From positions 3,720,001 through 3,784,000 of the forward strand of contig NZ_CP130832.1 of assembly GCF_030549615.1 (NCBI RefSeq): 64,000 bases of DNA, written 5' to 3'. The position numbers were made by a program, and so were the translations under genes. The stretch comes from Stenotrophomonas sp. 610A2 (GTDB lineage Bacteria; Pseudomonadota; Gammaproteobacteria; Xanthomonadales; Xanthomonadaceae). How positions within the stretch are numbered: position 1 is the stretch's first letter; every line of letters begins with the position of its first letter. The notes beneath the pieces are model-generated. The model was given only the letters and a program-made list of their open reading frames with translations. It had not been told where the DNA came from and did no database searches. Positions 4,326 through 50,147 of the stretch are shown here, piece by piece.

Positions 4326-5530
4326 AGCCTTCGACTGGCGACATGGCTGGCGCCCAGTTCCCCGGCCATCCCCTGTTGCGCCGCCGCGACGGCCACCATG
4401 CGCGGGTGACCTATGAAGAACTGTTCTTCGACCTGGTCTACGTATTCGCGGTGACACAACTCAGCCATGAGCTGCTGCACAACCTCAGCGCTGCCGGCTT
4501 GGTTGAAACGCTGATCCTGTGGTTCGCGGTGTGGCTGGGCTGGCAGTACACCTGCTGGGTCACCAACTGGTTCGACCCGGAGACGCCGCGCATACGCGCC
4601 CTGATGTTCGTGACCATGCTGCTCGGGCTGGTGATGGCCGCCAGCATCCCCATGGCATTCGCCGATCGGGGACTGGTGTTCGCGGGCGCCTATGTGGGGA
4701 TGCAGGTAGGACGAACCGCCTTCATCGCCTTGCAACTGCCCGCAAGCCATCCGCTGGCGCCCAATTACCGGCGCATGCTTGGCTGGCTGCTGATCTCGGC
4801 GGTGTTCTGGCTCTCCGGGGCGATGGTCCAGCACGAGGCCCGCGCATTGCTATGGGTGGTCGCGATTCTTTGCGAATACGTATCGCCGATGTTCGGTTTC
4901 GCACTGCCCGGAATGGGCCGCTCACGCACACGGGAATGGACCATCGAGGGTGGTCATCTCGCCGAGCGCTGCCAGTTGTTCGTGATTGTGGCGCTGGGCG
5001 AAACCCTGCTGGCCAGCGGCGCGACACTGGCCAATGCGGCCGAATGGGACGCGCCGGTGGTGCTCGCGTTGCTGGCCACTTTCGTGGGTACCTTGGCCAT
5101 GTGGTGGCTGTACTTCGGCACATCAAGCAAGGATGCGACCAACGCGATCTTGCATTCGGACGACCCCGGCCGCATCGGCGCCTACTTCCACTACGTGCAT
5201 GCAATTCTCATCGCAGGCGTGATCGCCTCGGCAGTGGGCAACGACCTGGTACTTGCACATCCGCATGCCCATCCGGCCGCCGCGCAGGTCGCGATCCTGT
5301 TGGCAGGACCCGCCATCTACCTACTGGGCAGCGCCGCTTACAAGCGAATTGTCTACGGGACGATGCCGGTGTCCCACCTGGTTGGCGTGCTGTTGCTGCT
5401 GGCGCTCGTGCCGGTAGGACTCCGCGCCGACATGTTGATCATGGGTTGGCTGACCACGGCGGTCGTGCTGATCGTGAGCTTCTGGGAAGCACGTCTGTTT
5501 CAGGAGCGGCGCGGCAACGTACAGCAGTGA
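4322..5530 (+). CDS. ltrA: LtrA family membrane protein
   Basis: A 402-residue polytopic membrane protein of the low-temperature-requirement A family. The family signature is at the N-terminus, where the YEELFFDLVYVFAVTQLSH segment (about residues 34-52) opens the first membrane helix, followed by roughly ten hydrophobic segments. A cytoplasmic N-terminal tail with HPLLRRRDGHHAR precedes it. The biochemical function of LtrA proteins is not well established; the name comes from a cold-sensitive Listeria mutant. The start overlaps the upstream small membrane gene (ATGA). The gene ends 134 bases from a convergent L,D-transpeptidase gene. Confidence 0.9.
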   Translation: MKPSTGDMAGAQFPGHPLLRRRDGHHARVTYEELFFDLVYVFAVTQLSHELLHNLSAAGLVETLILWFAVWLGWQYTCWVTNWFDPETPRIRALMFVTMLLGLVMAASIPMAFADRGLVFAGAYVGMQVGRTAFIALQLPASHPLAPNYRRMLGWLLISAVFWLSGAMVQHEARALLWVVAILCEYVSPMFGFALPGMGRSRTREWTIEGGHLAERCQLFVIVALGETLLASGATLANAAEWDAPVVLALLATFVGTLAMWWLYFGTSSKDATNAILHSDDPGRIGAYFHYVHAILIAGVIASAVGNDLVLAHPHAHPAAAQVAILLAGPAIYLLGSAAYKRIVYGTMPVSHLVGVLLLLALVPVGLRADMLIMGWLTTAVVLIVSFWEARLFQERRGNVQQ

Positions 5531-5664
5531 AACAGCAGGAGCTCGTGCGCCGTACTTGTCCACGGCTGTCTTTTGCACAGGACACGCAGCCCCGCGCTCT
5601 GAATATGGAATCTCAGACGTTGCGCTGCTTCGCCGGCTGCGAGCAGCGAGCCCACGGATTTCCA

Positions 5665-6393
5665 TCATCGCGAAGAGCGCGCGCCGCCACCGCCGCTGCC
5701 TTTTGCAGCTTCTCGACTCTGTGCGAACTCCGGAAAGGTATCTTCCAGAGAATCCTTGTCTGGCAGGATGTAGAAGATACCGCCACGCTCGAAGGTCGAA
5801 CTGATGATCTGCTCGTAGAACCCGGGCGAGACGTTGATGCAGCCATGGGTGACGCGATTGTCATCCGGCGTAGGTGATGCAAGGCGCTCGACGCGACGCT
5901 CGGCTGGCACGCCGGTCGCGGTGGGATGGATGGAAACCGCGGACTCATAGTCCACCCACAACACACGGCCTGCATCGATGGACGGACCAAAGCCGCCTAC
6001 GAAGCGACCTGCAGGCGTGGTGCGATCACGACCGGGAATCTCGCGCAGCGCGAGTCCGGCGACGCCGGGTGCGGTGTGATCACCGGTTGCCGACCCGAAC
6101 AGACCGGGTGTAGCACCGCGCAGCTTGCCATCTCCGCCAAACACCAATATCTGTGCAGCGGCCTTGTCCATGATCGCAAACGGGTAGCCCTGGTTGTCCT
6201 TGCTCGCGACAACCCAACCGGCAAGTTCAATCACCGTGTCGGAGACCTCCTGGCCTGGCGGCAGCTCATCAACCGCGGCAGCCGGTTGCGCGACAGCATC
6301 CTCTGCGCTGGCCACGCCGATGCTCCCGAAAGCCAGCGCCATTACCAATGCGCCACAGGCGGCTCGGATTGCAGGGTTTGTATGCGTACGGAT
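5665..6393 (-). CDS. L,D-transpeptidase (YkuD), probable AUC start
   Basis: A periplasmic L,D-transpeptidase that would cross-link or edit peptidoglycan, or attach proteins to it. The catalytic segment is THGCIN with His183 and Cys185 (numbered from 6393), preceded by a nucleating YkuD fold with SIHPT. The C-terminus is a glycine/serine/arginine tail. The start is odd. The only in-frame ATG near the N-terminus (6342) leaves a 13-residue stub of a signal peptide, and a TTG at 6348 adds two residues. Fifteen codons further up, an ATC codon at 6391-6393 is preceded at seven bases by AAGGAA and gives a textbook signal peptide (RTHTNPAIR, hydrophobic core, ASA|ED). No upstream ATG exists before the in-frame stop. 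Either initiation is at AUC or an ATG has changed by one base. The enzyme family is sure, the start inferred. Confidence 0.82.
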   Translation of the reverse strand: MRTHTNPAIRAACGALVMALAFGSIGVASAEDAVAQPAAAVDELPPGQEVSDTVIELAGWVVASKDNQGYPFAIMDKAAAQILVFGGDGKLRGATPGLFGSATGDHTAPGVAGLALREIPGRDRTTPAGRFVGGFGPSIDAGRVLWVDYESAVSIHPTATGVPAERRVERLASPTPDDNRVTHGCINVSPGFYEQIISSTFERGGIFYILPDKDSLEDTFPEFAQSREAAKGSGGGGARSSR

Positions 6394-6509
6394 GGGACGG
6401 TTCCTTCAGAAGACGGTCTGACGTATGGAAACCAGTGGCCCACAAAGGCCACCGGGTTCCTTTTCAACTACTCGACTCAAGGAGTCGTTACGAAACGTGC
6501 TCGAGCGGA

Positions 6510-6779
6510 CTAACCGCGCGGCGTGCGGCGGGGAGCCCTTTCGAGTTGCTGGACGCGACCTTCAATCTGGTCCAGCCGTTGGTTGGCTTGCTGTGCGGAT
6601 TGATTGGCGGATTCGGCACTCTGGGCCGCGCCCTGAACGCGCGTGTCGAGCTGATCGAGACGTGAGTTGATCCCTGCGAATTCTTCTTTGTAGGTTGCGC
6701 AGGAAGACAGGCTTGCGGCAGCGACAATCGCAACACCGAGCGTACGAGCCATCACCATTGTTTGCTTGGTCACTAACAT
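6510..6779 (-). CDS. Lpp-like small lipoprotein
   Basis: An 89-residue outer-envelope lipoprotein. The signal peptide ends in the lipobox LSSC with the acylated Cys27. The mature part is a heptad-repeat helix (INSRLDQLDTRV, then QRLDQIEGRVQQLE) like the Braun-lipoprotein coiled coil, with an alanine/serine/glutamine-rich middle. Unlike E. coli Lpp it has no C-terminal lysine; it ends RRTPRG, so covalent attachment to peptidoglycan is not expected in the usual way. The start at 6779 has an excellent GAAGGAGGG site six to seven bases upstream. The neighbouring L,D-transpeptidase is on the same strand 117 bases downstream, and that enzyme family includes Lpp-attaching members, so a functional link is possible. 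Confidence 0.8.
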   Translation of the reverse strand: MLVTKQTMVMARTLGVAIVAAASLSSCATYKEEFAGINSRLDQLDTRVQGAAQSAESANQSAQQANQRLDQIEGRVQQLERAPRRTPRG

Positions 6780-7083
6780 TCCAATCCCTCCTTCGTGTGG
6801 GGAATCAGGAATATAACTGCGTTTCCGGTGAGGTCGTCATCCGGTTTCATGAAGCGTTGGAACAGGTGCAAGGAGCGTGAAGAAACTGCCGCCATCGCAA
6901 CCGCAGCTCGAGTCATTCGACCGGCAATGGAACCGGCTGTATAGCTGCGATTGCCTCGCCTTGCGCGCAGTCAGCTATCAAAACCGAAGTTGATTTTTTG
7001 ATCTGGAATTAACGAGAGAATCTTCAGCGCTGGATGCAATGAGAGCTTCAAATTCCCAATTCATCTACAAGCCCAGCAATGCA
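6780..7083. other. 304-base intergenic region
   Basis: No gene is supported. It is the leader of the Lpp-like lipoprotein gene and follows the small membrane gene of the iron locus; both are on the minus strand. An AT-rich patch near 6985-7020 could hold a promoter, but I cannot assign -35 and -10 elements with confidence. Confidence 0.5.
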
Positions 7084-38802: not shown

Positions 38803-39687
38803 TCAAGGGCTCTGGGGCGTTGAACGCGCCTTGCTCAAGGCATCCTCGAAACTCTCCTTGTGCTCGTCCACCAGCCGGGCGAGCAGGCCTGGGTCCACAA
38901 ATGCATCTTCATCGCCATCGGCGCGTTGCGCCTGCCGCTCAAGGATGCCGGTGGTATCGGGATGGCCGCTCAGGACGATGTCGGCCTGCATCGCGCCAAG
39001 CTTTGCAAACGTCGCGCGGAAGTCTTCGGCGATAGTCGGGTAGCTGCGATTCCCAACCAGCGTATTGCCGGCGACGGTAATGCTGCACAGGAACAACAGC
39101 TCGCGCGGCGTGCCGCGATCGTTCACGGTCATGCTCCAGCTGGTGCATCCGGCGGTGTGCCCCGGCGTGAGGTGCGCCGTCAGCTCGACATCACCAAGCC
39201 GCAGCTTCTGCCCATCGCTGACGATCTCATCCAGCTTGATCGGATCGAAGGGCTGGATGCCGTAGTTGTTGTCGCCCTGGTTCCTGCCGTTCTCAAGCGC
39301 CCAACGGTCGCCAGCGCTGGCAGCATAACGTGCACCGGTGTCGCGTTTGAGTGCTGCCATCGCGCCGACATGATCAGCATGGGCATGGCTGCTGAGCAAC
39401 AGCCGCACATCATGCAGCGGCACACCCAGGCTTTCGATGTTGCGCTCGATCTGATCCGCGTTGGCAGCAAGCGGAGCATCCAGCAGGATCGCACCCTGCT
39501 CCGACACGATCAGGTAGGCCGCCAGTCCCTCGCTGCCTACGTAATAGATGTTGTCGACGATGTGAAATGGTTTGATCGGTGTGGTCCAGTCCGCGGGCGG
39601 CCCAGCCCACGCTACCGACGACGCCGTTCCGGCAAGCACCATCGCCGCCACCTGCAAACTCCTGCGAATTCCCTGCTTCTGCATCAT
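38803..39687 (-). CDS. Subclass B3-like metallo-beta-lactamase
   Basis: A 294-residue exported metallo-hydrolase. Signal region IRRSLQVAAMVLAGTASSVAWA. The zinc site is HAHADH, with His101, His103, Asp105 and His106 in local numbering, then GHTAGCTSW supplying the next His and LSGHPD the last. This order and spacing (with AHLTPGH, then LFLCS) match subclass B3 metallo-beta-lactamases such as L1, THIN-B and BJP-1 rather than glyoxalase II. It differs clearly from the usual L1 protein at the N-terminus and around the zinc site. Beta-lactam hydrolysis is therefore possible but not proven; other MBL hydrolases share the fold. The ATG at 39687 has AAGGT six bases upstream. Confidence 0.83.
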   Translation of the reverse strand: MMQKQGIRRSLQVAAMVLAGTASSVAWAGPPADWTTPIKPFHIVDNIYYVGSEGLAAYLIVSEQGAILLDAPLAANADQIERNIESLGVPLHDVRLLLSSHAHADHVGAMAALKRDTGARYAASAGDRWALENGRNQGDNNYGIQPFDPIKLDEIVSDGQKLRLGDVELTAHLTPGHTAGCTSWSMTVNDRGTPRELLFLCSITVAGNTLVGNRSYPTIAEDFRATFAKLGAMQADIVLSGHPDTTGILERQAQRADGDEDAFVDPGLLARLVDEHKESFEDALSKARSTPQSP

Positions 39688-39976
39688 CTCCGCACCTTGT
39701 CCGATAAGTGCAGGAACTGTGCGCCGTAGAGGAGATTGCGACAAATGCGTAGAACTGGGCCGAGCCATGAGTTTTCCTTGGCCTTTGCCCATCTGCCGGC
39801 AGGCCGGCAGGACACGTGCCAGGCACCCCGCCATCCGGCAATAAACGGCCGGCGTTCGCCGCGCACCGTAATTGCGATTCTCCGGTCTGCAATTTTTACG
39901 GCGTTTTCATCGCTACGTATCACCACCAAGCCGAGCCCAGCAGTATCTTCGCGTCCATCCGCCCCGAGAAGCCACA

Positions 39977-41662
39977 ATGATCCGTCGATCCTTGTCCCTG
40001 CTGCTTCCGTCCCTGTTTGCGGCTGCAGCGCTGTCGGGCTGCGACGCTCCCGACAACGCAACCGCCGTTGCCGACAAGGCCCCGGCATCAGACGCCAAAG
40101 AACTCCCGTTGTTCGACACCTTCGGCGACCTGCACCGCGACATCGGCAGCAAGGTGCCACTGGCACAGCGCTACTTCGACCAAGGCCTGCGTCTGGCCTA
40201 TGGCTTCAACCATGAAGCTGCCGGACGTGCATTCGCCGAAGCCGCGCGCTTGGACCCGGCATGTGCAATGTGCATTTGGGGCCAGGCCTTGGTGCTTGGG
40301 CCAAACATCAACCTGCCGATGGATCCGGCGGCCGCCAAAGATGCCACGGCATTGGCGGCACGTGCTGCCTCCCTTGCCATCGGCGCGCGGCCTGTCGACC
40401 AAGCGCTGATCCAGGCACTGCAGAAACGCTACAGCGATTCCGCACCAGAAGACCGCAGGCAACTGGACCATGACTACGCCAACGCGATGGCAGCGGTAGT
40501 GGCGCAGTTTCCTGAAGACGATGACGCCGCCACGATGTACGCGGAGGCCTTGATGGATCTCTCGCCGTGGGCCTATTGGCAGGATGGCAAGCCCGCCGAG
40601 TTCACCCAGGCATTGGTCGGCGAGCTGGAGCGCGTGCTGGCGCGCAACCCGCGCCATATCGGCGCGATGCACTACTACATCCATGCCATGGAATCGTCTC
40701 CCGAGCCAAAGCGTGCCGAGCCCTACGCCGATGCTTTGGCTGCGCTGGCGCCGGGTTCCGGCCACCTGGTGCATATGCCCGCGCATATCTACATCCGCGT
40801 TGGCCGCTACCACGATGCAACCCTGACCAACCTGGCCGCAACCACCGCCGACAAGGATTTCCTCGCGGTCTGCCGTGGCAGCAATGGCGTCTATCCGCTG
40901 GGCTATGTGCCGCATAACTGGCACTTCGCCACGATGACCACGGGACTGACCGGCTCACGCACGCTGTCCATGCAGGCCGCCAAACAGACGGCCGATCGGG
41001 CGGACCGCGCGGCCATGGGCGAGGCGCCGATGCAGTTCATGCAGCAGTTCGTGGTGGCACCGCTGCTTACCCAGGTCCGTTTCGGTGATTGGGACGGCAT
41101 CCTCGCCGACACCAGCACTGCAGCCGAACTTCCCTATCCTGCCGCGATCCGCCATTTCGCCCGCGGCATGGCACATGCCCGCAAAGGCGCACTGGCAGAA
41201 GCAATGCGCGACGCCGAAGCCCTGCATGCCATCACCGCCGATACGGCAATGGCGCAGGTCAGCTTCTTCGACATCAACCACGCCGACGGCGTGCTGCGTG
41301 TTGCCGATGCACTCCTGCGTGGCGAACTGCTACGCGCGCAGGGAAAGCACAGCGAAGCGATTACCGCCTTGCGAGAGGCTGCAGCCGCCGAAGATGCCCT
41401 GGCCTACAACGAACCCGCCGACTGGCCGCTACCGGTGCGCCCCTATCTGGGTGCCGCGCTGCTGGAGACAGGTGATGCGAGATCCGCAGCCGAAGCCTTC
41501 AATCAGGACCTGAAGACCTATCCGGCCAATGGCTGGTCGTTGTTCGGGCTGGCGCAGGCACAACAGGTGTTGGGCCAGGCCGATGCGGCAGCCGAAACCA
41601 AACGCCAGCACACAGCAGCCTGGCAATGGGCAGATGCGGCGTTGGCAGCTGCGCGCTACTGA
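39977..41662 (+). CDS. TPR-repeat lipoprotein
   Basis: A 561-residue lipoprotein (lipobox ALSGC, Cys22) with a periplasmic tetratricopeptide array. The repeats are recognisable from about 60 (DQGLRLAYGFNHEAAGRAFAEAARLDP) to the C-terminus (ALLETGDARSAAEAFNQDLKTYP). An intervening region contains AHIYIRVGRYHDATLTN and a cysteine pair near CAMC. TPR lipoproteins usually scaffold protein complexes. It is divergent from the B3-like gene across 289 bases. It ends seven bases into the convergent nadR gene. No catalytic motif is visible. Confidence 0.8.
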   Translation: MIRRSLSLLLPSLFAAAALSGCDAPDNATAVADKAPASDAKELPLFDTFGDLHRDIGSKVPLAQRYFDQGLRLAYGFNHEAAGRAFAEAARLDPACAMCIWGQALVLGPNINLPMDPAAAKDATALAARAASLAIGARPVDQALIQALQKRYSDSAPEDRRQLDHDYANAMAAVVAQFPEDDDAATMYAEALMDLSPWAYWQDGKPAEFTQALVGELERVLARNPRHIGAMHYYIHAMESSPEPKRAEPYADALAALAPGSGHLVHMPAHIYIRVGRYHDATLTNLAATTADKDFLAVCRGSNGVYPLGYVPHNWHFATMTTGLTGSRTLSMQAAKQTADRADRAAMGEAPMQFMQQFVVAPLLTQVRFGDWDGILADTSTAAELPYPAAIRHFARGMAHARKGALAEAMRDAEALHAITADTAMAQVSFFDINHADGVLRVADALLRGELLRAQGKHSEAITALREAAAAEDALAYNEPADWPLPVRPYLGAALLETGDARSAAEAFNQDLKTYPANGWSLFGLAQAQQVLGQADAAAETKRQHTAAWQWADAALAAARY

Positions 41663-42744
41663 ACCAGCGCTGGCCGCGACCTGGCTGCATCCACATCCGG
41701 CAGCAGCTCGGCCATGGCTGCCAGCGCCGTCGCCTCTCGCTGCTGCCAATCGCCGCCCAACTGGCGGAAAGGAATCTGCCGGCTGCCAAGCTCACGCAGA
41801 TACCAGGCATGCTGCCAGCGCCGGAACGCCTCGTCGCGGCGGGTGCCGTCCTGCACGAATGGAACATCAGGGTCACACAGCAACACCAGGTCATAGCGAC
41901 GCTGCGACAATTCCAGCAAGCACGGATCGGCGCGACCAAACATCGCCTCGGCGTACAACAAGGTGGTCAACGGCGAGGTGTCGCAGACCAGCCAGCCGGT
42001 GGCGGCACCCAGCAGATCTTCCTCGCGCGCCACCTGGGTCTGGGCGATATGCAGCAGATCCGACTCCTGAAGCTGGCCATCCTGCGCCTCCCACAGCTCG
42101 CGACCATATTCGGCGGCGTAGACACTGTCGCAACGCGTGGCCAGTGTCCAGGCCAGCGTTGATTTCCCGGTGGATTCACCACCCAGCAACACCACCCGCC
42201 TGACGAAATCACGGTACACCTGCGGCGCCAGCTGCTGCCGTTGCGCATGCAGGTCCGCGCGCACTGCAGTGCCCGATACCGGTACGCTGCGCCGTGCCGG
42301 ATCGACCTCAACGTGCGCCACCGCGCGGCCGCCATGCAGCTGCTGTTGCTGCGACAGCACTGCGGCGAAACCGGGGCCGTAGTCCTCGCTGGTGAATACC
42401 AGATCCACCTCGCTCTGGATCACCTCGCGCAGCAGCCAGGCCATGAACAGGCGATGTGCCTCGTCGCTGGCATCGTTACCCGGCAGGCATCGCTGCGGCA
42501 GCCCCAAGCGCTGGCAATGTTCGGCCAAGCGCGCGTCGTCGAGCACCCAGTGGTTGGCGTCTGGATACAGCGCACGCAGCCACGTCTCTCGCCGATGCGG
42601 CGCCATGCCGGGAAACTCGGGCTTGGTGTAACTGACCACGATCAGCCGCTCGCAGGCCGCCTGTGCATGATCCAGCAGCAACTGGTGACCGCGGTGCAGC
42701 GGGCAGAACTTGCCCACCACCAGGCCGACCCGTAGCGCGCTCAC
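41656..42744 (-). CDS. nadR: NadR-like NMN adenylyltransferase/ribosylnicotinamide kinase
   Basis: A 362-residue two-domain enzyme. The N-terminal nucleotidyltransferase (about 5-170) carries GKFCPLHRGH, the class I GxFxPxHxGH motif that transfers AMP from ATP to NMN. The C-terminal kinase (about 185-362) has a P-loop GGESTGKST at 188-196 and would phosphorylate nicotinamide riboside. Together they turn nicotinamide riboside into NAD. The N-terminal helix-turn-helix of enterobacterial NadR is absent, so it is an enzyme and not a repressor. The start is GTG 42744, overlapping the pnuC stop as GTGA; upstream codons belong to pnuC in another frame. It is last in the cassette. Confidence 0.9.
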   Translation of the reverse strand: MSALRVGLVVGKFCPLHRGHQLLLDHAQAACERLIVVSYTKPEFPGMAPHRRETWLRALYPDANHWVLDDARLAEHCQRLGLPQRCLPGNDASDEAHRLFMAWLLREVIQSEVDLVFTSEDYGPGFAAVLSQQQQLHGGRAVAHVEVDPARRSVPVSGTAVRADLHAQRQQLAPQVYRDFVRRVVLLGGESTGKSTLAWTLATRCDSVYAAEYGRELWEAQDGQLQESDLLHIAQTQVAREEDLLGAATGWLVCDTSPLTTLLYAEAMFGRADPCLLELSQRRYDLVLLCDPDVPFVQDGTRRDEAFRRWQHAWYLRELGSRQIPFRQLGGDWQQREATALAAMAELLPDVDAARSRPALVQ

Positions 42745-43310
42745 GCAGCCGCGCCCTGCTCGCGCCACAGCCGGCGCCAATGCCGCCATGCCAGCCAGGC
42801 GTTGATCCAATAGGCCGCATACAACACGGACGTCAGGGTGAGACCGCGCGAGGCGTACAGCGGCACCGCGATGGTATTGACCAGCACCCACACCGGCCAG
42901 GTCTCGATGCGCCTGCACATCAGCAGCAGCTGCGCCAGCACCGACAGGCACAGCACCGAGGAATCGGCGAACGGCGCGTAGGCGTCGGTGAAGCGATGCA
43001 GTACAAGCCCGTAAGCGCCGCCAGCCAGCAGCGCTCCGGCGCCCATCAGCAGGAAGCTGCGCAACGGCGTGCGTTTGATCGGCAACGCTTCATGGCTGGC
43101 GCTGGCGTGCCAGTTCCACCAGCCGAACATGCTGGCCACGACGAAGAACACCTGCAGCAGTACATCGGCGTACAGCTGGGTATGCCAGAACAGCAGGCCG
43201 AACAGCGAGCAGCCAATGATGCCGGTCCACCATGTGTGCACGCTATTGCGCGCCGCACACAGGATGGAGGCGGTGGCGAAGGCGTTGGCGGCGATTTCCA
43301 GTGCGGTCAT
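42741..43310 (-). CDS. pnuC: PnuC nicotinamide riboside transporter
   Basis: A 189-residue inner-membrane transporter of the PnuC family, with six to seven hydrophobic helices. The hallmark is the tryptophan-rich SMFGWWNWHASASH segment near residues 60-73 and RRIETWPVWVLVNTIAVPLY near 132-151. It imports nicotinamide riboside, which the adjacent NadR phosphorylates, so uptake is driven by trapping. Start and stop overlap its neighbours on both sides (ATGA at 43307-43310 and GTGA at 42741-42744), so translation is coupled to both. Confidence 0.93.
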   Translation of the reverse strand: MTALEIAANAFATASILCAARNSVHTWWTGIIGCSLFGLLFWHTQLYADVLLQVFFVVASMFGWWNWHASASHEALPIKRTPLRSFLLMGAGALLAGGAYGLVLHRFTDAYAPFADSSVLCLSVLAQLLLMCRRIETWPVWVLVNTIAVPLYASRGLTLTSVLYAAYWINAWLAWRHWRRLWREQGAAA

Positions 43311-44680
43311 GCGCCCAGGCCTTCGGTGAGATCGGTGGTGTATTGCAGCACTTTGTCCTCCGCGTGCATCAGCACGACCTGCACCGGCAGGTCGTCCAGG
43401 GTGTGTTGCAGGGCCGCTTGCGCCTGCTGTGCGTAACCGGCCTCGGCGGCTGGCAGATGCAGGTTGACGCTGCCGTCGGCATGCTGGTGCACACGAAAAC
43501 GCGACAGCGGCAGCGCCGCCAAAGCGTGGGTCAGGTCGATGTTATTGATCCAGCGGCCACTGCGGGTGCGGTAGCGTACCGGTCGCCTGCCCTGCAGGTC
43601 GACAATCATCGGCACATCGCCGCACATCGCCAGCGCGCCACGGTCGCCGGTGCGGTAGCGCAGCAGCGGCAGGCAGAAGTTGAAACCACCGGTCAGGGTG
43701 ATCTCACCGACCTGGCCGTCGGCAACGGCACGACCGGCATCGTCCAGCACTTCCACATACATGCCCGGCTGCAGCAGCACATGGCCACCTGCGGCGGCGT
43801 CATGCACCGCCAGCGGGCCGGCTTCGTTCATCGAATAGATGTCCAGTACCGGGCAATCGAATTGCTGTTGCAGCATCTGCCGCAAACCGGGCGACAAGGC
43901 CATCGAGACCGACAGCAGCGCGCGCGGCCGGTGGCTCAGTCCCAACTCCAACAAGGTGGCGAAGGAGATCGGATCACCAGCGATCACCTCCGGCTGCAGC
44001 GCATCGATATAGCGCGCGCGGTCATCGGGGTGGCGCCACTCGTCCGGATGCAGGTTGATCTTGGCCAGCCCGGACTCGTCCATGCTCGGCGTCACCGATA
44101 CATAGGTGAAGCAGCGTTGCTGCATGCCCAGCAGCATCACGCCCATCTGCCCGCGACCGTTGCGCAGCTGTACGCCCGCGCGCGCCAGCGCACGCTTGTG
44201 GTAAGCCAGATAGCGACCGGCCACGACTGGATGCGATGGCAGCACCAGCGGGTGGCCGGTGGTACCGGTGGTGCGGAAGTTCATCATCCGCTGCAGCGGC
44301 ACCGGATCCGGCACGAACTGGGCGATGTCGGCGGCCAGGTCACCGCGATGGGTGGTAGCGATGTCCTCGAAACATGCGGCACGACCGCGCGCGCGGAAGT
44401 ACGGCACCTGCGCGATCACCTCATCGACAAGGCTCTGCAGCCACGGTGGTTGTGAGCCCGGCTGCCACTGGAAACCAGCGCCGAGGATGTCGCGTTCGTA
44501 GGCGCGCAGCTGCTGCACTTCGGCGGCGAGCAGCCGATTGCCGCTCTGGTTGCGGTAGCGCGGTGCCGCCGGATGCTCACGCATCCGCTGCAGCATCGCC
44601 CTGCCCGCTTCGCTCAGGGTGGGATAGCGCTCACCGTCGTGCGGGTCTTGATTCACTCGCGCGGTCACTCGCGCGTCCAT
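43307..44680 (-). CDS. PaaK-like adenylate-forming enzyme
   Basis: A 457-residue adenylating enzyme of the phenylacetate-CoA ligase/CapK class. The ATP-binding P-loop segment is FRTTGTTGHPL near residues 132-142; DIYSMNEAGPLAVHD and LLRYRTGDRGAL correspond to the later A5 and A8-type motifs. These enzymes activate a carboxylate as acyl-AMP and usually pass it to CoA. The substrate cannot be told. It overlaps its upstream neighbour by 16 bases and the pnuC gene by four. An adenylating enzyme in an NAD salvage and MoxR/VWA cassette is unusual and is the oddest member of the set. Confidence 0.82.
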   Translation of the reverse strand: MDARVTARVNQDPHDGERYPTLSEAGRAMLQRMREHPAAPRYRNQSGNRLLAAEVQQLRAYERDILGAGFQWQPGSQPPWLQSLVDEVIAQVPYFRARGRAACFEDIATTHRGDLAADIAQFVPDPVPLQRMMNFRTTGTTGHPLVLPSHPVVAGRYLAYHKRALARAGVQLRNGRGQMGVMLLGMQQRCFTYVSVTPSMDESGLAKINLHPDEWRHPDDRARYIDALQPEVIAGDPISFATLLELGLSHRPRALLSVSMALSPGLRQMLQQQFDCPVLDIYSMNEAGPLAVHDAAAGGHVLLQPGMYVEVLDDAGRAVADGQVGEITLTGGFNFCLPLLRYRTGDRGALAMCGDVPMIVDLQGRRPVRYRTRSGRWINNIDLTHALAALPLSRFRVHQHADGSVNLHLPAAEAGYAQQAQAALQHTLDDLPVQVVLMHAEDKVLQYTTDLTEGLGA

Positions 44681-45246
44681 TTGTCCGCCGATTCCTCGGC
44701 GGCCTTGCGTGCCAGCGCCTCGCGGATGGCACGCGCGCGCGCTTCGGCAGCGCGGCTGGCTTCCAGCAGACGACGGCGTTCGACGCTGCTGACGCTGGCC
44801 AGGCGATCGGCTGCCTGCGCCGCGGTTTCACCCGCTGGCAGCAAGCCAAGACGGGCGATGGCCGTACGCACCAGTTCCTCGCGTCGATCCGGGTCGTGCA
44901 GATAGCGGTTCACTGCGGCTTCTGCCGCCAACGCGGGCACAGCCTCGGCAAATACCGGCAGCAGCGCCTCGCGCGGGAAGCGCAGCGCGTGCCAGGCTTC
45001 ATCGGCGAGCAGCCAGGCCATCACCGCGGACAGGCTCAGCTGGTTGGCGGTGACCGCTGCCAGGTTGCCGGACAGGCTGGCCTGCAACGCAGAAGGCAAG
45101 GCGACGCCGTGCAGGGCCAGCACGTCATTGACCACGGCGGCGACCTGCAGCTGTCCTTCGCGGCCGCGCCGTGGCGGATCGAGGAAGTCCGGTGGTGTAT
45201 CGATCAGGCGACGCAGCAGGGCGTCCAGCGAGGCGCTGTTGCTCAT
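44665..45246 (-). CDS. Hypothetical helical protein of MoxR/VWA cassette
   Basis: A 193-residue, entirely helical, soluble protein with no family I recognise. Its C-terminal third (about 140-193) is a charged coiled-coil-like stretch (LEASRAAEARARAIREALARK). No signal peptide. It starts at ATG 45246, 22 bases after the VWA gene's stop, and overlaps the adenylating enzyme gene by 16 bases. It is probably an accessory subunit of the AAA/VWA machine or an adaptor to the downstream enzyme; that is inference from position only. Confidence 0.7.
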   Translation of the reverse strand: MSNSASLDALLRRLIDTPPDFLDPPRRGREGQLQVAAVVNDVLALHGVALPSALQASLSGNLAAVTANQLSLSAVMAWLLADEAWHALRFPREALLPVFAEAVPALAAEAAVNRYLHDPDRREELVRTAIARLGLLPAGETAAQAADRLASVSSVERRRLLEASRAAEARARAIREALARKAAEESADKWTRE

Positions 45247-45268
45247 GATTGGTTCCGTAAGGTGTTCT

Positions 45269-47050
45269 TCATCGGCCCGCACCGCCCAGCGACTGGTAGT
45301 GGCGTTGGCTGAAATCACGTGCGAAGGCCAGCAGATCGGTCATGTCACGTACGACGTGGATATCCCAGCCCTGCTCGCGTGCGCGCAGCAGGTCGGCGGT
45401 CCAGCCTTTGGCACCGATCAGGCTTGCCGGCAAGGGACTGTAGAGATTCAGCGCCATGGTGCCGCCAGCCCGGCCCACACGCAGCGCCTGCGCGGCGACA
45501 TCCCAGCCGCTGTTGCCGCACTCGTCCCGCTCGAACATGGTGGTGATGCCGTCATCGGAGATATGCAGGATATGTACGGCACGCGCAGCCGCCGGCCGCT
45601 GCGCGTAGGTGCTGCGCAGGCGATGGATGGGGAAAGCCGTTGCGCCACCGAAGTAACCCACCAGCACCTTGAGGATGTCGTCCTCGCTGCGCACGAAACC
45701 ATCGGTGTGCAGGCATTGCTGCTTGCCGCTCCACAAGGTGGCCTGCACGCGCGCACCCGCCCGCAATGCCGACAACGCGATCACCGCACCGGCCAAGGTC
45801 AGCCATGAGGTGACCTGCTGCGGATCGGGCATGGAGCCGGAGCTGTCCACGTACAGGTCCAGATCAATCGGTTCATTTGCAGGTTCGTTGCCCGGCGCCG
45901 GCCCCATCACCCGCTGCACGGTGGTCACCCCCGGCACCACGGTGGGCGACTGCATCAAGGTCTGCAACCAATCCACCGCATCCAGCGGATCGCCGGGCTC
46001 CCAGGCTTCCAGCCCTTCCAGTTCGAGCTCCTGTGCCTGCGGCTGCGGGCTCACCGGGAAACGGATCAGGTGCGGCAAGGCACGCTCGCGGTAGTAGCGC
46101 ACCGCGAATTGCTGCGGGTCCATGTCCAAGCCGGCCGCGCGCAGGATTTCACCGTACTCGAACGGCTCGCGGGTCTGGCCGTAGCCGGGCGCGCGGGCTG
46201 GCAATGCGTCCTCCGCCACCACGTCTACTGCACCAGTCTCTTCCTCGCCAGTGATGCGCGGATCGAGCGCCGGATGCAGCACCGGTGCGAGTTCGTCTTC
46301 TTCCAGCCGATCCAGTCCCACCGGTTGACTGCCGCGCCCGGCATGGCGGGTATCCATCAGCGCATCCACGCGCGCGTCACTGATCGTCTCCAGCAAGTGC
46401 GGCAGCAGCAAGGCACTGAAACGGCTGGCACCTTCCATCCATTCGCCGGCATAGGTGCGGATCACCCGCGCGCCCAACCAGGCATCGCCGCGCAGGCCTG
46501 CATCTTCCAGCGCTGGCCCGCCCAGGCTACCGGCCGGCTGCTGCCACAGCTGTTCGTAGATGCCCATGTACAGCTGCCACAGCGGTGAACTACCGCTGGC
46601 ACCGGTGGCAAGGCGCTGGTAGATCTCGGCCATGCGCAGGCCGCATTGGCGTTGCAGGCGGTCGTTGATCAGCAGGTCGGTATAGAGGTTGGCGACCATC
46701 GGCGCGTGCGCTTCCAATGTCGGCAATGCGCGATGGATACGCGCCAGCAGCCGCGCGTGATCGGTGGCCGTGGCCGGTGCCAGCACGTGATGGCCGATCT
46801 CGTGGGCGAGGATTTCGCGGGCGTGATCCTGCAGCCCCAAACGCTGCACCTGCGGCAGATCGATCACCACCCGCTGGTCGGCCAAGCGGATCATCGCAAA
46901 GCTGCCGGTCAGGCCCTCCTTCGCTGCCTCGACGCTGCTGTCGCACAGGCGCGGATCCTGCAAGCGGGTGAAACGGCTCCAGTCGGCCAGCGCCAATGGC
47001 CAGGCGGCGCGCCAGTTGGCCAGCAGGCTTTCCTGCTCGGTGCTGCTCAT
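45269..47050 (-). CDS. HEXXH metallopeptidase-like protein with C-terminal VWA domain
   Basis: A 593-residue cytoplasmic protein joining two parts. The N-terminal part (about 20-240) contains HEIGHH at residues 83-88, an HEXXH zinc-binding motif of metallopeptidase type in the context ILAHEIGHHVL. The C-terminal part (about 395-593) is a von Willebrand A domain whose MIDAS is DSSGS (Asp402, Ser404, Ser406), with SDDG later. VWA proteins partner MoxR AAA ATPases, encoded two genes upstream here. A middle acidic stretch (EEETGAVDVVAEDAL) separates them. The ATG at 47050 overlaps the previous stop (ATGA). Proteolysis is inferred; the third zinc ligand is not identified. Confidence 0.84.
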   Translation of the reverse strand: MSSTEQESLLANWRAAWPLALADWSRFTRLQDPRLCDSSVEAAKEGLTGSFAMIRLADQRVVIDLPQVQRLGLQDHAREILAHEIGHHVLAPATATDHARLLARIHRALPTLEAHAPMVANLYTDLLINDRLQRQCGLRMAEIYQRLATGASGSSPLWQLYMGIYEQLWQQPAGSLGGPALEDAGLRGDAWLGARVIRTYAGEWMEGASRFSALLLPHLLETISDARVDALMDTRHAGRGSQPVGLDRLEEDELAPVLHPALDPRITGEEETGAVDVVAEDALPARAPGYGQTREPFEYGEILRAAGLDMDPQQFAVRYYRERALPHLIRFPVSPQPQAQELELEGLEAWEPGDPLDAVDWLQTLMQSPTVVPGVTTVQRVMGPAPGNEPANEPIDLDLYVDSSGSMPDPQQVTSWLTLAGAVIALSALRAGARVQATLWSGKQQCLHTDGFVRSEDDILKVLVGYFGGATAFPIHRLRSTYAQRPAAARAVHILHISDDGITTMFERDECGNSGWDVAAQALRVGRAGGTMALNLYSPLPASLIGAKGWTADLLRAREQGWDIHVVRDMTDLLAFARDFSQRHYQSLGGAGR

Positions 47051-48039
47051 GCCGCGCCCGGTAGCAGGCGCACGTGGTGCGACCACGGCGAATACAGGGC
47101 GATGCCGGCGGGTCCAGTCACTGCCACAAGGCCATCAGCTGGGGCGGCGTAAACGATGGTGGTCGTGCCAATGCGCGCGCCGTGACTATCGATTGAAAGC
47201 TGTGTGGCCGGCGTGACCCGCGCGGCGGCAAACTCCGCAGCACTGGCTGGCAACACCACGCCGCCGAAGGCATCGGCAATCAGCAGGAAATGGCGGTCGC
47301 CGCTACGTGCGATGAAACCTTCCGCGCTGGCGCGCAGCTCCGGCGGTGCAGCGAATGGGCCGCCCAAGCCGGTGAAACCGCCAACCGTCTGCCCCTGCAC
47401 GCTTGCAGCTGCCCCCTGCGGGTGCCACCAACGCTCGCGGCCGAGCTGGCTCCGCAGCGACGGCCACTGCGCTACGTCGACGCCAATCGCTTCTGCCGCC
47501 AACGCAGCAGGCATGCCATCGGCCTGTGCCAATGCCGCCACACGCAAATGCGCCATGCCCGCCTGCCATGCACACAGCGCGCCGACGCTGCGCAAGGCCG
47601 CCGTGCTGTCGCAACGCGGTGCCAATGCCACCATGCGCTGCAACCATGCATCGACGCGCACGCCCGGCACCTCGTGCATGCGCACGACCGCGTTGCTGAG
47701 TGCGCCCAGTGTTTCCAGTGGTGCAGCTGCGATCAGTGCTGCGGCAGGCACTGCCAGCTGCTGCCACGCGGCATCCACCCACGGCAGGCGAGCTGCCGGC
47801 CCTGCCAGTCCCTGCGCAACCAGTTCCAGGCCCAGCTCGAAGGCCACTTCGGTAGCCGCCGGCATCGCCGCTTCGTCCACGGCGGCAACCGCCAGGCACA
47901 GGGGGTCCAGCGTCTGCGCGACGAAGACCGAGAACGCCGCGGTGTCCAGGGTGGGCCAGCGCTGCCGCGCTTCGGCGACCTGTTGGTTGAGCAAGCTGCG
48001 GCGCGAAGCCAACAGACCGGTCAGTGCGGGTGACAGCAT
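47047..48039 (-). CDS. Hypothetical protein of MoxR/VWA cassette
   Basis: A 330-residue soluble protein of unknown family. Residues 1-190 are helix- and alanine-rich; residues about 195-330 switch to short beta strands (FIARSGDRHFLLIADAFGG, then ATQLSIDSHGARIGTTTIVY). It lies between the AAA ATPase and the VWA protein, one base after the former's stop and overlapping the latter as ATGA. The third component in known MoxR-VWA sets is often a beta-rich partner; the C-terminal half could be such a domain, but I cannot confirm the fold. No catalytic motif. Confidence 0.75.
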   Translation of the reverse strand: MLSPALTGLLASRRSLLNQQVAEARQRWPTLDTAAFSVFVAQTLDPLCLAVAAVDEAAMPAATEVAFELGLELVAQGLAGPAARLPWVDAAWQQLAVPAAALIAAAPLETLGALSNAVVRMHEVPGVRVDAWLQRMVALAPRCDSTAALRSVGALCAWQAGMAHLRVAALAQADGMPAALAAEAIGVDVAQWPSLRSQLGRERWWHPQGAAASVQGQTVGGFTGLGGPFAAPPELRASAEGFIARSGDRHFLLIADAFGGVVLPASAAEFAAARVTPATQLSIDSHGARIGTTTIVYAAPADGLVAVTGPAGIALYSPWSHHVRLLPGAA

Positions 48040-48040
48040 C

Positions 48041-49636
48041 TCAGCGCGCCTGCTGCCAATGCAGGTAGTTGGTGTAGCGTTGGTGCAGGTACTTGAGCTT
48101 GAGCAGATCGTCGTACAGATGACCGTAGAGCTTGCGGCCCTTCACCCGCTCCTCCACCAGCCGTTCGATGCGCGTGAGACGCGCACGCGTCTCACGCTCG
48201 CTGACGCCGTCAAGGCCACGTGCGAACTGCGCGGACAGCTCGCCGACCGGATCGTTGCGGTCCAGGTCCAAACGGTCGTATTCGGCATTGGAACTGTCCA
48301 GCAGCCAGCGCAGCCAGCTGAGCCGATCGCTGCGATAAGCGGCGTTTTCCGGCAGCGCGAAGAACGGCGCGTCCAGATCAGGCTGCAGCTTGTCGTTGAG
48401 CACGAACGGCAACACCTGGCGCACGTCGTCCAGCGCGACCGCGGCATTGCCGCGAAACCACGCCAGCGCCTTGGCGAACATCAGCAAGGTCATCAGGTTG
48501 CGTACCGACAAACCATTGCGGGTCTGGCAACCCAGGTCCTTCATGCGATCACGGCCGGAATCGGCAGCGATGGCCTGGGCCCAGTCAACGCCAGCCAGGC
48601 GCACGGTGTCCTTGGTCAGGTACTCGAACTGTGCACCGGCGGTTTCCATCAACTCGAACTGGCTGCTGAAGAACTCAATGCGCCTGCGCACATCCTGCGG
48701 CACCTCCACCGCACGGATCTGCTGCAGCATCTGGTCGCCTTCTTCCTCGCTGAAGATGATCTCGCGCGGCACCACTTCTTCCGGACGGATGTTCTGCTCG
48801 ATGCGCAGCAGCATCTCTTCGAGGAAGCGCGGGTTGAAGGCCAGCGCCTGCACCACCACGTCGATGCGGTCGCGCAGGGCCTCGATCACCTGGTAGGTAC
48901 CGCCGCCACGGTCGTCATTGGCGGTGAGGTACCACGCCGATTCCGGGCATTCGTAGACCTGGTTGAGCACTTCGGCGTAGTTGTCCCCCATCACCGTCAG
49001 CAGCGCGCTCTGGGTGCGGGTGGGGATGCGGTTGTACTCGTCGATGATCTTGACCCGCATGCCCAACCAGCTGCGCCAGGCGATGCGGATCTGCGACATG
49101 TCCTGCGCGGCGACCAGATCGGCCGGCAACGGATTGCCGAGCAGGTCGGCGATGGTCATCTGCGGGTGACCATGCTGCATGGCGCGACGCACCTCGCGCA
49201 CCGGGTAACCGGCAAGCACGCCCATCAGGATCGCACTGGCGGTCTTGCCACGGCCGGGGCCGCCGACAAACAGGCATTTGCGGCGGGTGGCGAAGGTCAG
49301 CAGCGGCAGCAGCACGTAACTGGAATAGCTCTGCGCCGATGGCAAGGTCAGCTGGCGGCGGGTATCACCAACATTGAAGCTGGCCGACGGACCGGCGTGG
49401 TATTCGATGTCGTAATGCGGGCTGATGATGGCGTTGTTGACGATCCAGAAGTAGGCCTGGCGCAGCTTCTCGTCCAACGCCAGCGGCGCGGCATCGGCGG
49501 CGCCGGCCAGCTGCACCGGTCCTTCATACAGTTCGGCCACATCGAAGGTCCGCGCCACCGGCTCGGCCTTCGGGTTGGTTGGCGCCTGCGACAGGCGCTG
49601 GAACAGGTTGAATGGCGACACCGGGCGTCCCTTCAT
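48041..49636 (-). CDS. MoxR-like AAA+ ATPase
   Basis: A 531-residue AAA+ ATPase of MoxR type. Walker A is GGPGRGKTAS starting at residue 125 and Walker B reads VKIIDEYNR with DE; a sensor segment SAWYLTANDD and an arginine-finger-like EALRDRIDVVV follow. It is longer than the common 320-residue MoxR because of an N-terminal extension (1-110) and a C-terminal helical part (about 400-531). MoxR ATPases remodel or load metals into partners that carry VWA domains, and the VWA gene lies two genes downstream. The ATG at 49636 was chosen over GTG 49639; neither has a clear Shine-Dalgarno site. It is first in the cassette. Confidence 0.88.
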   Translation of the reverse strand: MKGRPVSPFNLFQRLSQAPTNPKAEPVARTFDVAELYEGPVQLAGAADAAPLALDEKLRQAYFWIVNNAIISPHYDIEYHAGPSASFNVGDTRRQLTLPSAQSYSSYVLLPLLTFATRRKCLFVGGPGRGKTASAILMGVLAGYPVREVRRAMQHGHPQMTIADLLGNPLPADLVAAQDMSQIRIAWRSWLGMRVKIIDEYNRIPTRTQSALLTVMGDNYAEVLNQVYECPESAWYLTANDDRGGGTYQVIEALRDRIDVVVQALAFNPRFLEEMLLRIEQNIRPEEVVPREIIFSEEEGDQMLQQIRAVEVPQDVRRRIEFFSSQFELMETAGAQFEYLTKDTVRLAGVDWAQAIAADSGRDRMKDLGCQTRNGLSVRNLMTLLMFAKALAWFRGNAAVALDDVRQVLPFVLNDKLQPDLDAPFFALPENAAYRSDRLSWLRWLLDSSNAEYDRLDLDRNDPVGELSAQFARGLDGVSERETRARLTRIERLVEERVKGRKLYGHLYDDLLKLKYLHQRYTNYLHWQQAR

Positions 49637-49682: not shown

Positions 49683-50147
49683 TCAGTCAGTCGGCTGCGC
49701 GGACTGCTCGAACTCGAATACCTGCACGCGCTCGCCGGCGGATACGGTGGCCGTCAGCCGCCGGCCGTTGCGCTGGTAGGCGATCCGTTGCGGGAAGTCA
49801 TGTCGGGGGTTCTCGAACACCACCGACTGCGCGCCCTGCTCCACCAGCGCGAACCTGACTGGCGCGGGATTCCCTGCAACATCGGCTACGTAATACAGCT
49901 GTCCGCCTTCATCGACGATGCGCAGGCGCTCCTGAAACCGCCGCTCGCCCTGCCGATAGCTTCGGCCCTCACCTTCCAGCACATCCGCCTGCCGACGCCA
50001 GTGCTCTTCACCGCTCGTACCGGCCGCCATGCCCGTGCGTTGCCAGCTGCCCAGCAGCCAATCCAGCGACGTCAGCTCGGCCGCAGCTGCGGTCACAGCG
50101 CTGGCTGCACCGACCAGCAGGACCAACCAGAGCAGGAACCTGCGCAT
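49683..50147 (-). CDS. Secreted DUF6265-like protein
   Basis: A 154-residue exported protein. Signal peptide MRRFLLWLVLLVGAASAVTA. The mature part matches the small lipocalin-like DUF6265 group (LDWLLGSWQR near 29-38, EEHWRRQADVLEGEG, and FENPRHDFPQRIAYQR near 110-125). Function unknown; the fold may bind a small hydrophobic ligand. Its ATG overlaps the stop of the glutathione transferase gene, so the pair is coupled. Confidence 0.78.
   Translation of the reverse strand: MRRFLLWLVLLVGAASAVTAAAAELTSLDWLLGSWQRTGMAAGTSGEEHWRRQADVLEGEGRSYRQGERRFQERLRIVDEGGQLYYVADVAGNPAPVRFALVEQGAQSVVFENPRHDFPQRIAYQRNGRRLTATVSAGERVQVFEFEQSAQPTD

Follow-up and report, generated by a model that had tools for sequence, protein, structure and literature searches.

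A MoxR/VWA gene cassette of recurrent gene order and its association with nicotinamide riboside salvage genes

Why would the genes of a MoxR/VWA protein-remodelling machine stand in one run with genes for the import and conversion of nicotinamide riboside (NR), a precursor of nicotinamide adenine dinucleotide (NAD)? The question is raised by a 64,000-nucleotide stretch of Stenotrophomonas sp. 610A2 (NZ_CP130832.1, positions 3,720,001 to 3,784,000; hereafter the window), in which seven minus-strand open reading frames (ORFs), each with one terminal stop, occupy positions 41656-49636. In order, they encode a MoxR-like AAA+ ATPase, a 330-residue protein (U330), a protein with an HEXXH motif and a VWA domain (hereafter VWA), a 193-residue protein (U193), an ANL adenylate-forming enzyme, the NR transporter PnuC and a NadR-like NR kinase/nicotinamide mononucleotide (NMN) adenylyltransferase. 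The junctions from MoxR to NadR are a gap of 1 base, an overlap of 4, a gap of 22, and overlaps of 16, 4 and 4 bases. Re-examination of the ORFs thereby reproduced the seven genes, strand, gaps and overlaps of an initial annotation, made from the window's letters, which had proposed that the seven form one unit. Comparison of sequences across distant bacteria shows the cassette to be one evolutionary unit associated with NR salvage genes.

We collected loci by a one-genome-per-species scan with an alignment of 16 VWA sequences, which returned 123 relatives, and used the best 80 by VWA similarity. This set is rich in Janthinobacterium and its relatives; loci were also placed in groups, which are our own genus-level labels. 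Presence of a gene was scored by tblastn with the window proteins and one radical SAM protein, and "in the locus" means inside the DNA fetched, up to 10 kb on each side of VWA. Loci and genomes carry L and G numbers where they must be told apart. We found MoxR in 76 of the 80 loci, U330 in 79, U193 in 74, ANL in 71, NadR in 63, PnuC in 33, and a radical SAM gene in 28. All seven window genes were present in 30 loci from 24 groups, and 27 of these, from 21 groups, kept the window's order and strand; the exceptions are L082 and L089, in which the pnuC-nadR pair is divergent and upstream, and L085, in which PnuC is on the other strand. The first five genes, from MoxR to ANL (hereafter the core), had the same order and strand in 68 of the 68 loci that hold all five. 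MoxR was at least 61% identical in every locus where it was matched, and 4-base overlaps recur across loci of the cassette. Because the order recurs in distant genomes, the arrangement is more than a chance join; the neighbourhood comparison suggested by the initial annotation thus found its gene order far from the window, in support of the proposed unit.

We then followed the NAD-supply genes. Sixty-nine of the 80 loci had room for them, that is, at least 3 kb of DNA downstream, and NadR was in the locus in 58 of these 69. By group, it was found in at least one locus in 28 of 37 groups and in every locus in 26. PnuC was found less regularly, in 28 of those 69 loci, and in L087 the pnuC-nadR pair lies several genes downstream. 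NadR stood in the locus without PnuC in all 17 Janthinobacterium loci, all 5 Duganella loci and 4 of the 6 Massilia loci, and the 13 genomes of this kind that we searched have two PnuC genes each. A second PnuC was also observed beside a short protein matching the kinase half of NadR alone in two Oxalobacteraceae-type core genomes (L128, 5966-7133; L129, 6426-7588), and the window's genome has a second PnuC gene (G000:C1:1931171-1931701) that is 36% identical to the cassette PnuC. In a further 13 core genomes, among them two whose contigs break off too early, NadR was missing from the fetched locus; 9 of the 13 carry it elsewhere, and PnuC adjoins NadR in 8 of the 8 that were also searched for PnuC. 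In two of those genomes the pair shares the cassette's contig: in L060/L121 it stands behind WGR/DUF4132, MoxR, DUF5682, VWA_CoxE and SWIM genes, with no gap there to U193 and ANL, and in L058/L120 it lies about 14 kb from the cassette. Across phyla, the NAD-supply link is well supported by these gene neighbourhoods.

Inside the genus, the link is loose. The genus sample comprised 37 genomes, including the window's, and the larger sample of relatives 61 genomes; VWA was found in 7 of the 61 and in 5 of the 37 (again including the window's), and the genomes with an ANL of at least 50% identity are the 7 VWA holders and no others. Among the five core holders of the genus, pnuC-nadR adjoins the core in only two; G011, G021 and G024 carry nadR elsewhere. 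All five holders have NadR versus 13 of the 32 core-less genus genomes, with a hypergeometric P of 0.02 that assumes independence of species, which does not hold. We examined 10 standalone nadR loci, two of them from core holders, and pnuC adjoins in 9. The initial annotation had counted NAD precursor supply as part of the unit and had asked whether relatives mostly keep pnuC-nadR and the core apart. Beyond the genus the comparison speaks mostly for the unit, and the supply claim stands on the counts by locus and by group; inside the genus, the three unlinked holders and the core-less genomes with a nadR count against it.

We also compared protein distances. Over 57 loci, pairwise distances of NadR correlated with those of VWA, MoxR, ANL and U193 (r 0.89-0.92), much as the core proteins did among themselves (0.89-0.94), in a comparison that has no control gene and whose "main" set omits 4 of the 57 loci, from seven listed as outliers. 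L010 and L012, which are the same contigs as L019 and L023, were removed before motif, tree and distance work. We built a NadR tree of 78 sequences (61 from cassettes, including the window's, and 17 from other loci), rooted at the midpoint and read by eye with no support test; one of the 17, L121, turned out to be cassette-borne. Most cassette NadR proteins fall in one clade, within which the standalone NadR proteins of Stenotrophomonas-group genomes also fall. L082 lies far outside, beside the standalone NadR of a Verrucomicrobiia genome. Since its VWA and ANL are each 59% identical to those of the window, but its PnuC 30% and its NadR 35%, and since its NadR groups with a standalone NadR, L082 is a clear case, as judged from sequence, of PnuC and NadR replaced by distant relatives. 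In L085, NadR is 52% identical and PnuC, on the other strand, 34%, which suggests replacement of PnuC. The NadR proteins of L087, L089, L090 and L092 are also outside the main clade, and the core of these loci is distant too (VWA 48-50%, ANL 34% where found).

The cassette is rare and patchy in its distribution. Counting the genome from which each search started, it was found in 3 of 398 genomes sampled from the window's phylum and in 2 of 387 from the phylum to which a Verrucomicrobiia genome belongs. Its holders include the environmental type strains Paucimonas lemoignei DSM 7445, Roseateles depolymerans DSM 11813 and Pseudoxanthomonas daejeonensis DSM 17801. When the U193 profile was run against a large protein collection, 7998 candidates were scored, of which 3003 reached E<=0.001. 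No relative of VWA was found in 72,556 plasmid records, in 50,697 phage records or in a scan of viral contigs, and we rejected a mobile or phage origin on these grounds. Two loci, L014 (G055) and L015 (G046), hold VWA, radical SAM and U193 without MoxR or U330 in the fetched stretch, a genome-wide search for MoxR not having been made; ANL adjoins in L015 and is on another contig in the genome of L014. These may represent a reduced or different version of the cassette. A small extra gene between MoxR and U330, mostly overlapping MoxR by 4 bases, was observed in L033 (8583-9050) and 12 other Janthinobacterium loci; in L033 it encodes 155 residues that match no NCBIfam family.

What do the cassette proteins resemble? 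Short gene calls were removed before motifs were counted, which kept 83 VWA, 79 U330, 78 U193, 75 MoxR, 72 ANL, 60 NadR, 33 PnuC and 27 radical SAM sequences, to which the window's were then added; some motif misses probably come from truncated gene calls. MoxR (48041-49636, 531 residues) has the Walker A motif GGPGRGKT and the Walker B motif IIDEY and scores over the Pfam cut-offs for AAA_3 (29.2 bits) and AAA_lid_2 (31.6 bits); among full-length family members including the window's, Walker A is kept in 75 of 76 and Walker B in 76 of 76. VWA (45269-47050, 593 residues) combines a putative metallopeptidase domain with a VWA co-chaperone domain. Its predicted metal site, HEIGH (46790-46804), was placed from the 16-row VWA alignment, and the DSSGS motif of the metal-ion-dependent adhesion site (MIDAS; 45833-45847) is invariant in the same 16 rows. 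In the family, HEXXH and DxSxS are both kept in 84 of 84 sequences, GGx[TS] in 83 and SDDG in 77. The protein matched no Pfam VWA model and, by profile, no PDB relative at E<=1; the nearest named relatives of the window's copy are from Stenotrophomonas sp. The N-terminal HEXXH domain is probably a metallopeptidase, and the two proteins have the features of a MoxR/VWA pair of the general kind, the VWA domain being recognised by motif.

Pfam searches with U330, VWA and U193 returned no family at E<=10, and no NCBIfam model scored above its cut-off against any of the three. U330 (47047-48039) is predicted to form a helical repeat (residues 4-201) followed by a C-terminal beta domain (about 217-326), with a predicted local distance difference test score (pLDDT) of 96.2 and a partial, propeller-like structural match of middling Z. 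U193 (44665-45246) is predicted by AlphaFold2 to be well folded and all-helical (pLDDT 92.7). Its last residue is acidic: the window's protein ends in -RE, all 45 aligned rows finish with E or D, and 79 of 79 sequences end in [RG][ED]. Structure comparison gave no significant fold match for U193 or U330.

The ANL enzyme (43307-44680, 457 residues) scores 41.3 bits against Pfam AMP-binding, over the cut-off, and the A3, A5 and A7 motif patterns are kept in 69, 70 and 72 of 73 sequences. Among NCBIfam models, the DVU_1553 family CoA ligase (NF045666) comes closest, at 77.3 against a cut-off of 300, and the enzyme scores 28.1 against the PaaK model TIGR02155, with its cut-off of 646.3. It is thus distantly PaaK/DVU_1553-like: the name "PaaK-like ligase" in the initial annotation holds for the broad ANL kinship and not for PaaK identity. 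PnuC (42741-43310, 189 residues) scores over the cut-offs for PF04973 NMN_transporter (158.3 versus 27.3 bits) and TIGR01528 (77.2 versus 42.45), matches PDB entry 4qtn at E 1.2e-10, and belongs to a family in which 28 of 34 members have WxxWxxxN. NadR (41656-42744, 362 residues, GTG start) scores 108 bits against AAA_28, over the Pfam cut-off. Because it falls short of the TIGR01526 cut-off (144.3 versus 341.15 bits), we call it NadR-like on the strength of motifs and alignment: it aligns with solved NadR proteins in the PDB, and HRGH and GGESTGKST mark its two catalytic domains, with their HxGH and Walker A motifs. The family keeps HxGH in 57 of 61 sequences, Walker A in 58, [IV]S.[ST].[IVLM]R in 57 and D.P[WF][VI].D..R in 40. 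Both PnuC and NadR resemble their families and retain the key motifs.

The radical SAM gene was not part of the initial annotation and is absent from the window's genome. Two examples score 54 and 47 bits against PF04055, and CxxxCxxC is kept in 25 of 27 sequences; the protein weakly resembles NirJ, heme d1/heme b synthase and SPASM/peptide maturases, all far below cut-offs. In 23 of its 28 loci, the gene is flanked by VWA and U193 and shares their strand. The five remaining loci differ: the DNA of L041 and L078 stops short of U193, L060 carries an insertion, its U193 lying beyond the fetched DNA, and in L072 and L085 the gene occupies another place. A search of 21 genomes at E<=1e-10 found it only in the genomes of L021 (the query) and L085, and not in the other 19, the window's among them. 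Radical SAM is an optional module of the cassette.

Around the cassette, most loci have unrelated flanks. In flank-family clustering, which covered 86 loci, the most widespread families are the eight cassette members, and the others, regulators for example, are lineage-specific or scattered. A few loci carry NAD or ADP-ribose genes. In L055, from a Massilia metagenome-assembled genome (MAG), NrtR (on the opposite strand), a PncA-like gene (called by eye, with no Pfam match), NAPRTase, a NadM-like NMNAT-Nudix and an ADP-ribosylglycohydrolase precede MoxR and the seven-gene cassette. L048, from Paucimonas lemoignei, has a related, divergent set with NAD synthase, and upstream of the cassette in L058, from a Limisphaerales MAG, we found NrtR, PARG, a cREC-ADP-ribosylglycohydrolase, KptA and two more ADP-ribosylglycohydrolases. 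A chance estimate for NrtR, P ~3e-6, is indicative, as the 25 genomes were hand-picked and include three loci already seen. We take these flanks as hints, not a rule. A Pfam scan of the seven window proteins found no ADP-ribosylglycohydrolase among them.

Three distant contigs carry a second MoxR/VWA cluster beside or inside the cassette (L060 14057-21589 with L121; L058 14739-21515 with L120; L029 17321-20970); SWIM and VWA_CoxE-like genes are common to all three, and two of the contigs add DUF5682-like, MoxR and DUF4132-like genes. In L025, from an Acidobacteria MAG, a 776-residue protein with TCAD9 and dual-specificity phosphatase domains (4742-7072) is encoded just upstream of the cassette.

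In the window itself, a DUF6265 gene (49683-50147, minus strand) lies 46 bases upstream of MoxR and is possibly co-transcribed with it here. Downstream, a TPR-repeat-like protein (39872-41662, plus strand), with Pfam TPR matches under the cut-offs, is convergent, its 3' end overlapping the end of NadR. Neither this TPR gene nor the DUF6265 and GST genes on the upstream side were accepted as cassette members, since among the 80 loci they were matched only in the closest relatives (DUF6265 only in the closest one, L017). A subclass B3 metallo-beta-lactamase (38803-39834, minus strand) lies about 1.8 kb from the cassette end; it scores 316 bits against NF033105 (cut-off 240) and is under the cut-offs of the listed allele families (L1, 160 versus 560 bits).

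What might such a cassette do? NAD supply is the partner most often added to the core, and a few infrequent neighbours act on ADP-ribose and NAD; on these grounds the most likely function is a system that maintains the NAD economy, to which we give a probability of roughly 0.4. As its families suggest, the MoxR AAA+ ring would drive the VWA protein, which probably also cuts, and U330 and U193 would be client or adaptor subunits that bring or hold clients. Because an acidic end stands beside a MIDAS protein, the C-terminal tail of U193 is a candidate docking tail, a ligand of the VWA MIDAS metal. The AAA+/VWA-peptidase machine may extract, remodel or cleave clients whose state depends on NAD or ADP-ribose, being NAD-consuming or ADP-ribosylated; the ANL ligase, with radical SAM where present, may modify the client or a small tag. 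PnuC and NadR would import NR and convert it to NAD+, and this salvage would restore the NAD+ spent. The action of the machine is here proposed from family membership. A bolder version, which we put forward tentatively, is a new NAD-dependent protein-maintenance system in which the AAA+/VWA metallopeptidase machine acts with a ligase and an optional radical SAM enzyme that write or erase a novel client modification, perhaps at the acidic C-terminus of U193, using NAD+ or an NR-derived nucleotide from the cassette's own PnuC-NadR.

Several observations weigh against an NAD-economy function. PnuC was in the locus in just 33 of the 80 loci. No NadR was found in the core genomes G067, G069, G087 and G088, all MAGs, or, by genome search, in G046 and G055, which have VWA. 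NAD and ADP-ribose flanks are scarce by tblastn with single examples (NrtR 3, ADP-ribosylglycohydrolase 4 and DUF4291 2 of 80 loci, the last in L022 and L087), and we noticed no ADP-ribosyltransferase among the regular members. Nothing in the comparison points to a particular substrate for ANL or radical SAM. Because the distance comparison has no control gene, shared descent alone could give much of the correlation; likewise, because the core of L087, L089, L090 and L092 is distant too, their distant NadR proteins may reflect old divergence rather than replacement.

The initial annotation had offered a maturation system or a stress or conflict system as alternatives, which fared differently. 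Cofactor or post-translational maturation is the next most likely function, though less probable than not: ANL and the optional radical SAM would assemble a small group or alter a residue, perhaps starting from a nucleotide that NadR makes out of NR, and MoxR/VWA would insert the product into a client enzyme. Several MoxR/VWA pairs of known function are maturation factors. Among the 61 relatives, cassette-type ANL was found in VWA holders alone, and radical SAM, among the 21 genomes searched, only in those with the gene in the locus; NadR joins a kinase to an adenylyltransferase, and the weak likeness of radical SAM to heme and peptide-maturation enzymes fits as well. However, the loci showed no recognisable gene for a client enzyme as a regular neighbour, and radical SAM is dispensable, being present in 28 of 80.

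A role in conflict, against phages or between bacteria, in which the cassette would protect NAD+ or strip off hostile ADP-ribosylation, we consider unlikely. The patchy spread in the genus and phylum samples would suit such a role, as would the TCAD9 protein beside L025 and the ADP-ribosylglycohydrolase, PARG, KptA and NrtR genes near some loci, since ADP-ribose genes also occur in proposed conflict systems; one proposed system centred on ADP-ribosylglycohydrolase includes Nudix regulators and vWA chaperones in the passages of PMC9503650 that describe it. However, none of the seven window proteins matched PADLOC-DB at E<=0.1, by which a PADLOC-listed defence system was rejected, VWA relatives are missing from the plasmid, phage and viral collections searched, and MoxR keeps its high identity wherever matched. 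No effector gene was recognised in flanks that were clustered by similarity and annotated in part.

That pnuC-nadR is attached through linkage only, within a horizontally inherited operon without functional coupling, we regard as improbable. Standalone pnuC-nadR pairs exist, the pair is not adjacent to the core in three of the five genus holders, the distance correlation would also be expected from shared descent, and clear replacement of the pair is a single case, L082. Against this stand the replacements themselves, with both genes exchanged in L082 and L085 bearing a 34%-identical PnuC on the other strand next to a 52%-identical NadR, as well as the NadR genes found elsewhere in 9 of the 13 core genomes without one in the locus and the NadR excess among genus core holders, with the reservation on species independence given above. 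Last, a chance join in this genome, to which the loose linkage inside the genus might point, is refuted by the 27 loci that hold all seven genes in the same order and on the same strand.

If the link between the core and NAD supply holds, it would explain why a dedicated NR route is found in some bacteria. It also offers a first functional handle on U330, U193 and the HEXXH/VWA protein. Through a gene order that has survived long divergence, it brings together NAD salvage and MoxR/VWA protein remodelling, two fields that seldom meet.

How does the cassette compare with known systems? CbbQ/CbbO and CoxD/CoxE are MoxR-VWA pairs, and the cassette shares with them, and with NorQ/NorD and RavA/ViaA, a two-protein MoxR/VWA engine. 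Unlike those pairs, it has no target enzyme recognised in cis and adds a ligase, an optional radical SAM enzyme and NAD salvage genes. The cluster of SWIM, VWA_CoxE, DUF5682, MoxR and WGR-DUF4132 genes, which we take to be similar to E. coli yeh/molR, is another MoxR/VWA set, with no U330, U193 or ANL in it. NorQ/NorD is described, in the relevant part of PMC9976466, as inserting iron into its client enzyme. In the MoxR-vWA ternary conflict systems, as set out in passages of PMC7159879, a MoxR AAA+ protein and a vWA co-chaperone act with a further conserved protein, the third component being VMAP, iSTAND, FtsH or a vWA-fused beta-propeller. The cassette likewise has a MoxR AAA+ protein, a VWA protein and further conserved proteins; in contrast to those systems, none of the named third components was recognised in it, its VWA protein carries HEXXH, and ANL and NadR are common members, whereas the ternary-system passages of that paper make no mention of PnuC, NadR or an ANL ligase. 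Group 2.2 jumbo phages, like the cassette, have a MoxR gene that neighbours one for a vWA protein bearing a metallopeptidase domain at its N-terminus, a pair proposed to serve virion assembly in the part of PMC7824862 concerned; that part names no ANL, PnuC or NadR, and sequence kinship was checked only by the VWA search of the phage collection, which gave no hit. The systems centred on ADP-ribosylglycohydrolase, with a Nudix regulator and a vWA chaperone in one neighbourhood, resemble the surroundings of L055, L048 and L058, but the corresponding passages of PMC9503650 name no MoxR, ANL, PnuC or NadR, and an ADP-ribosylglycohydrolase lies near just 4 of the 80 cassette loci. NAD regulons are described in the sections of PMC5343134 on that subject. 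No description of this gene set appeared among the matches listed in our full-text literature searches, whose coverage leaves out most subscription papers, and in this the initial annotation, which knew of no system with the full set, was borne out. Overall, the set is a MoxR/VWA system of new composition, and it may yet prove to have a function of a new kind. The PnuC-NadR salvage pair, which often stands alone, is here part of a larger, translationally coupled operon.

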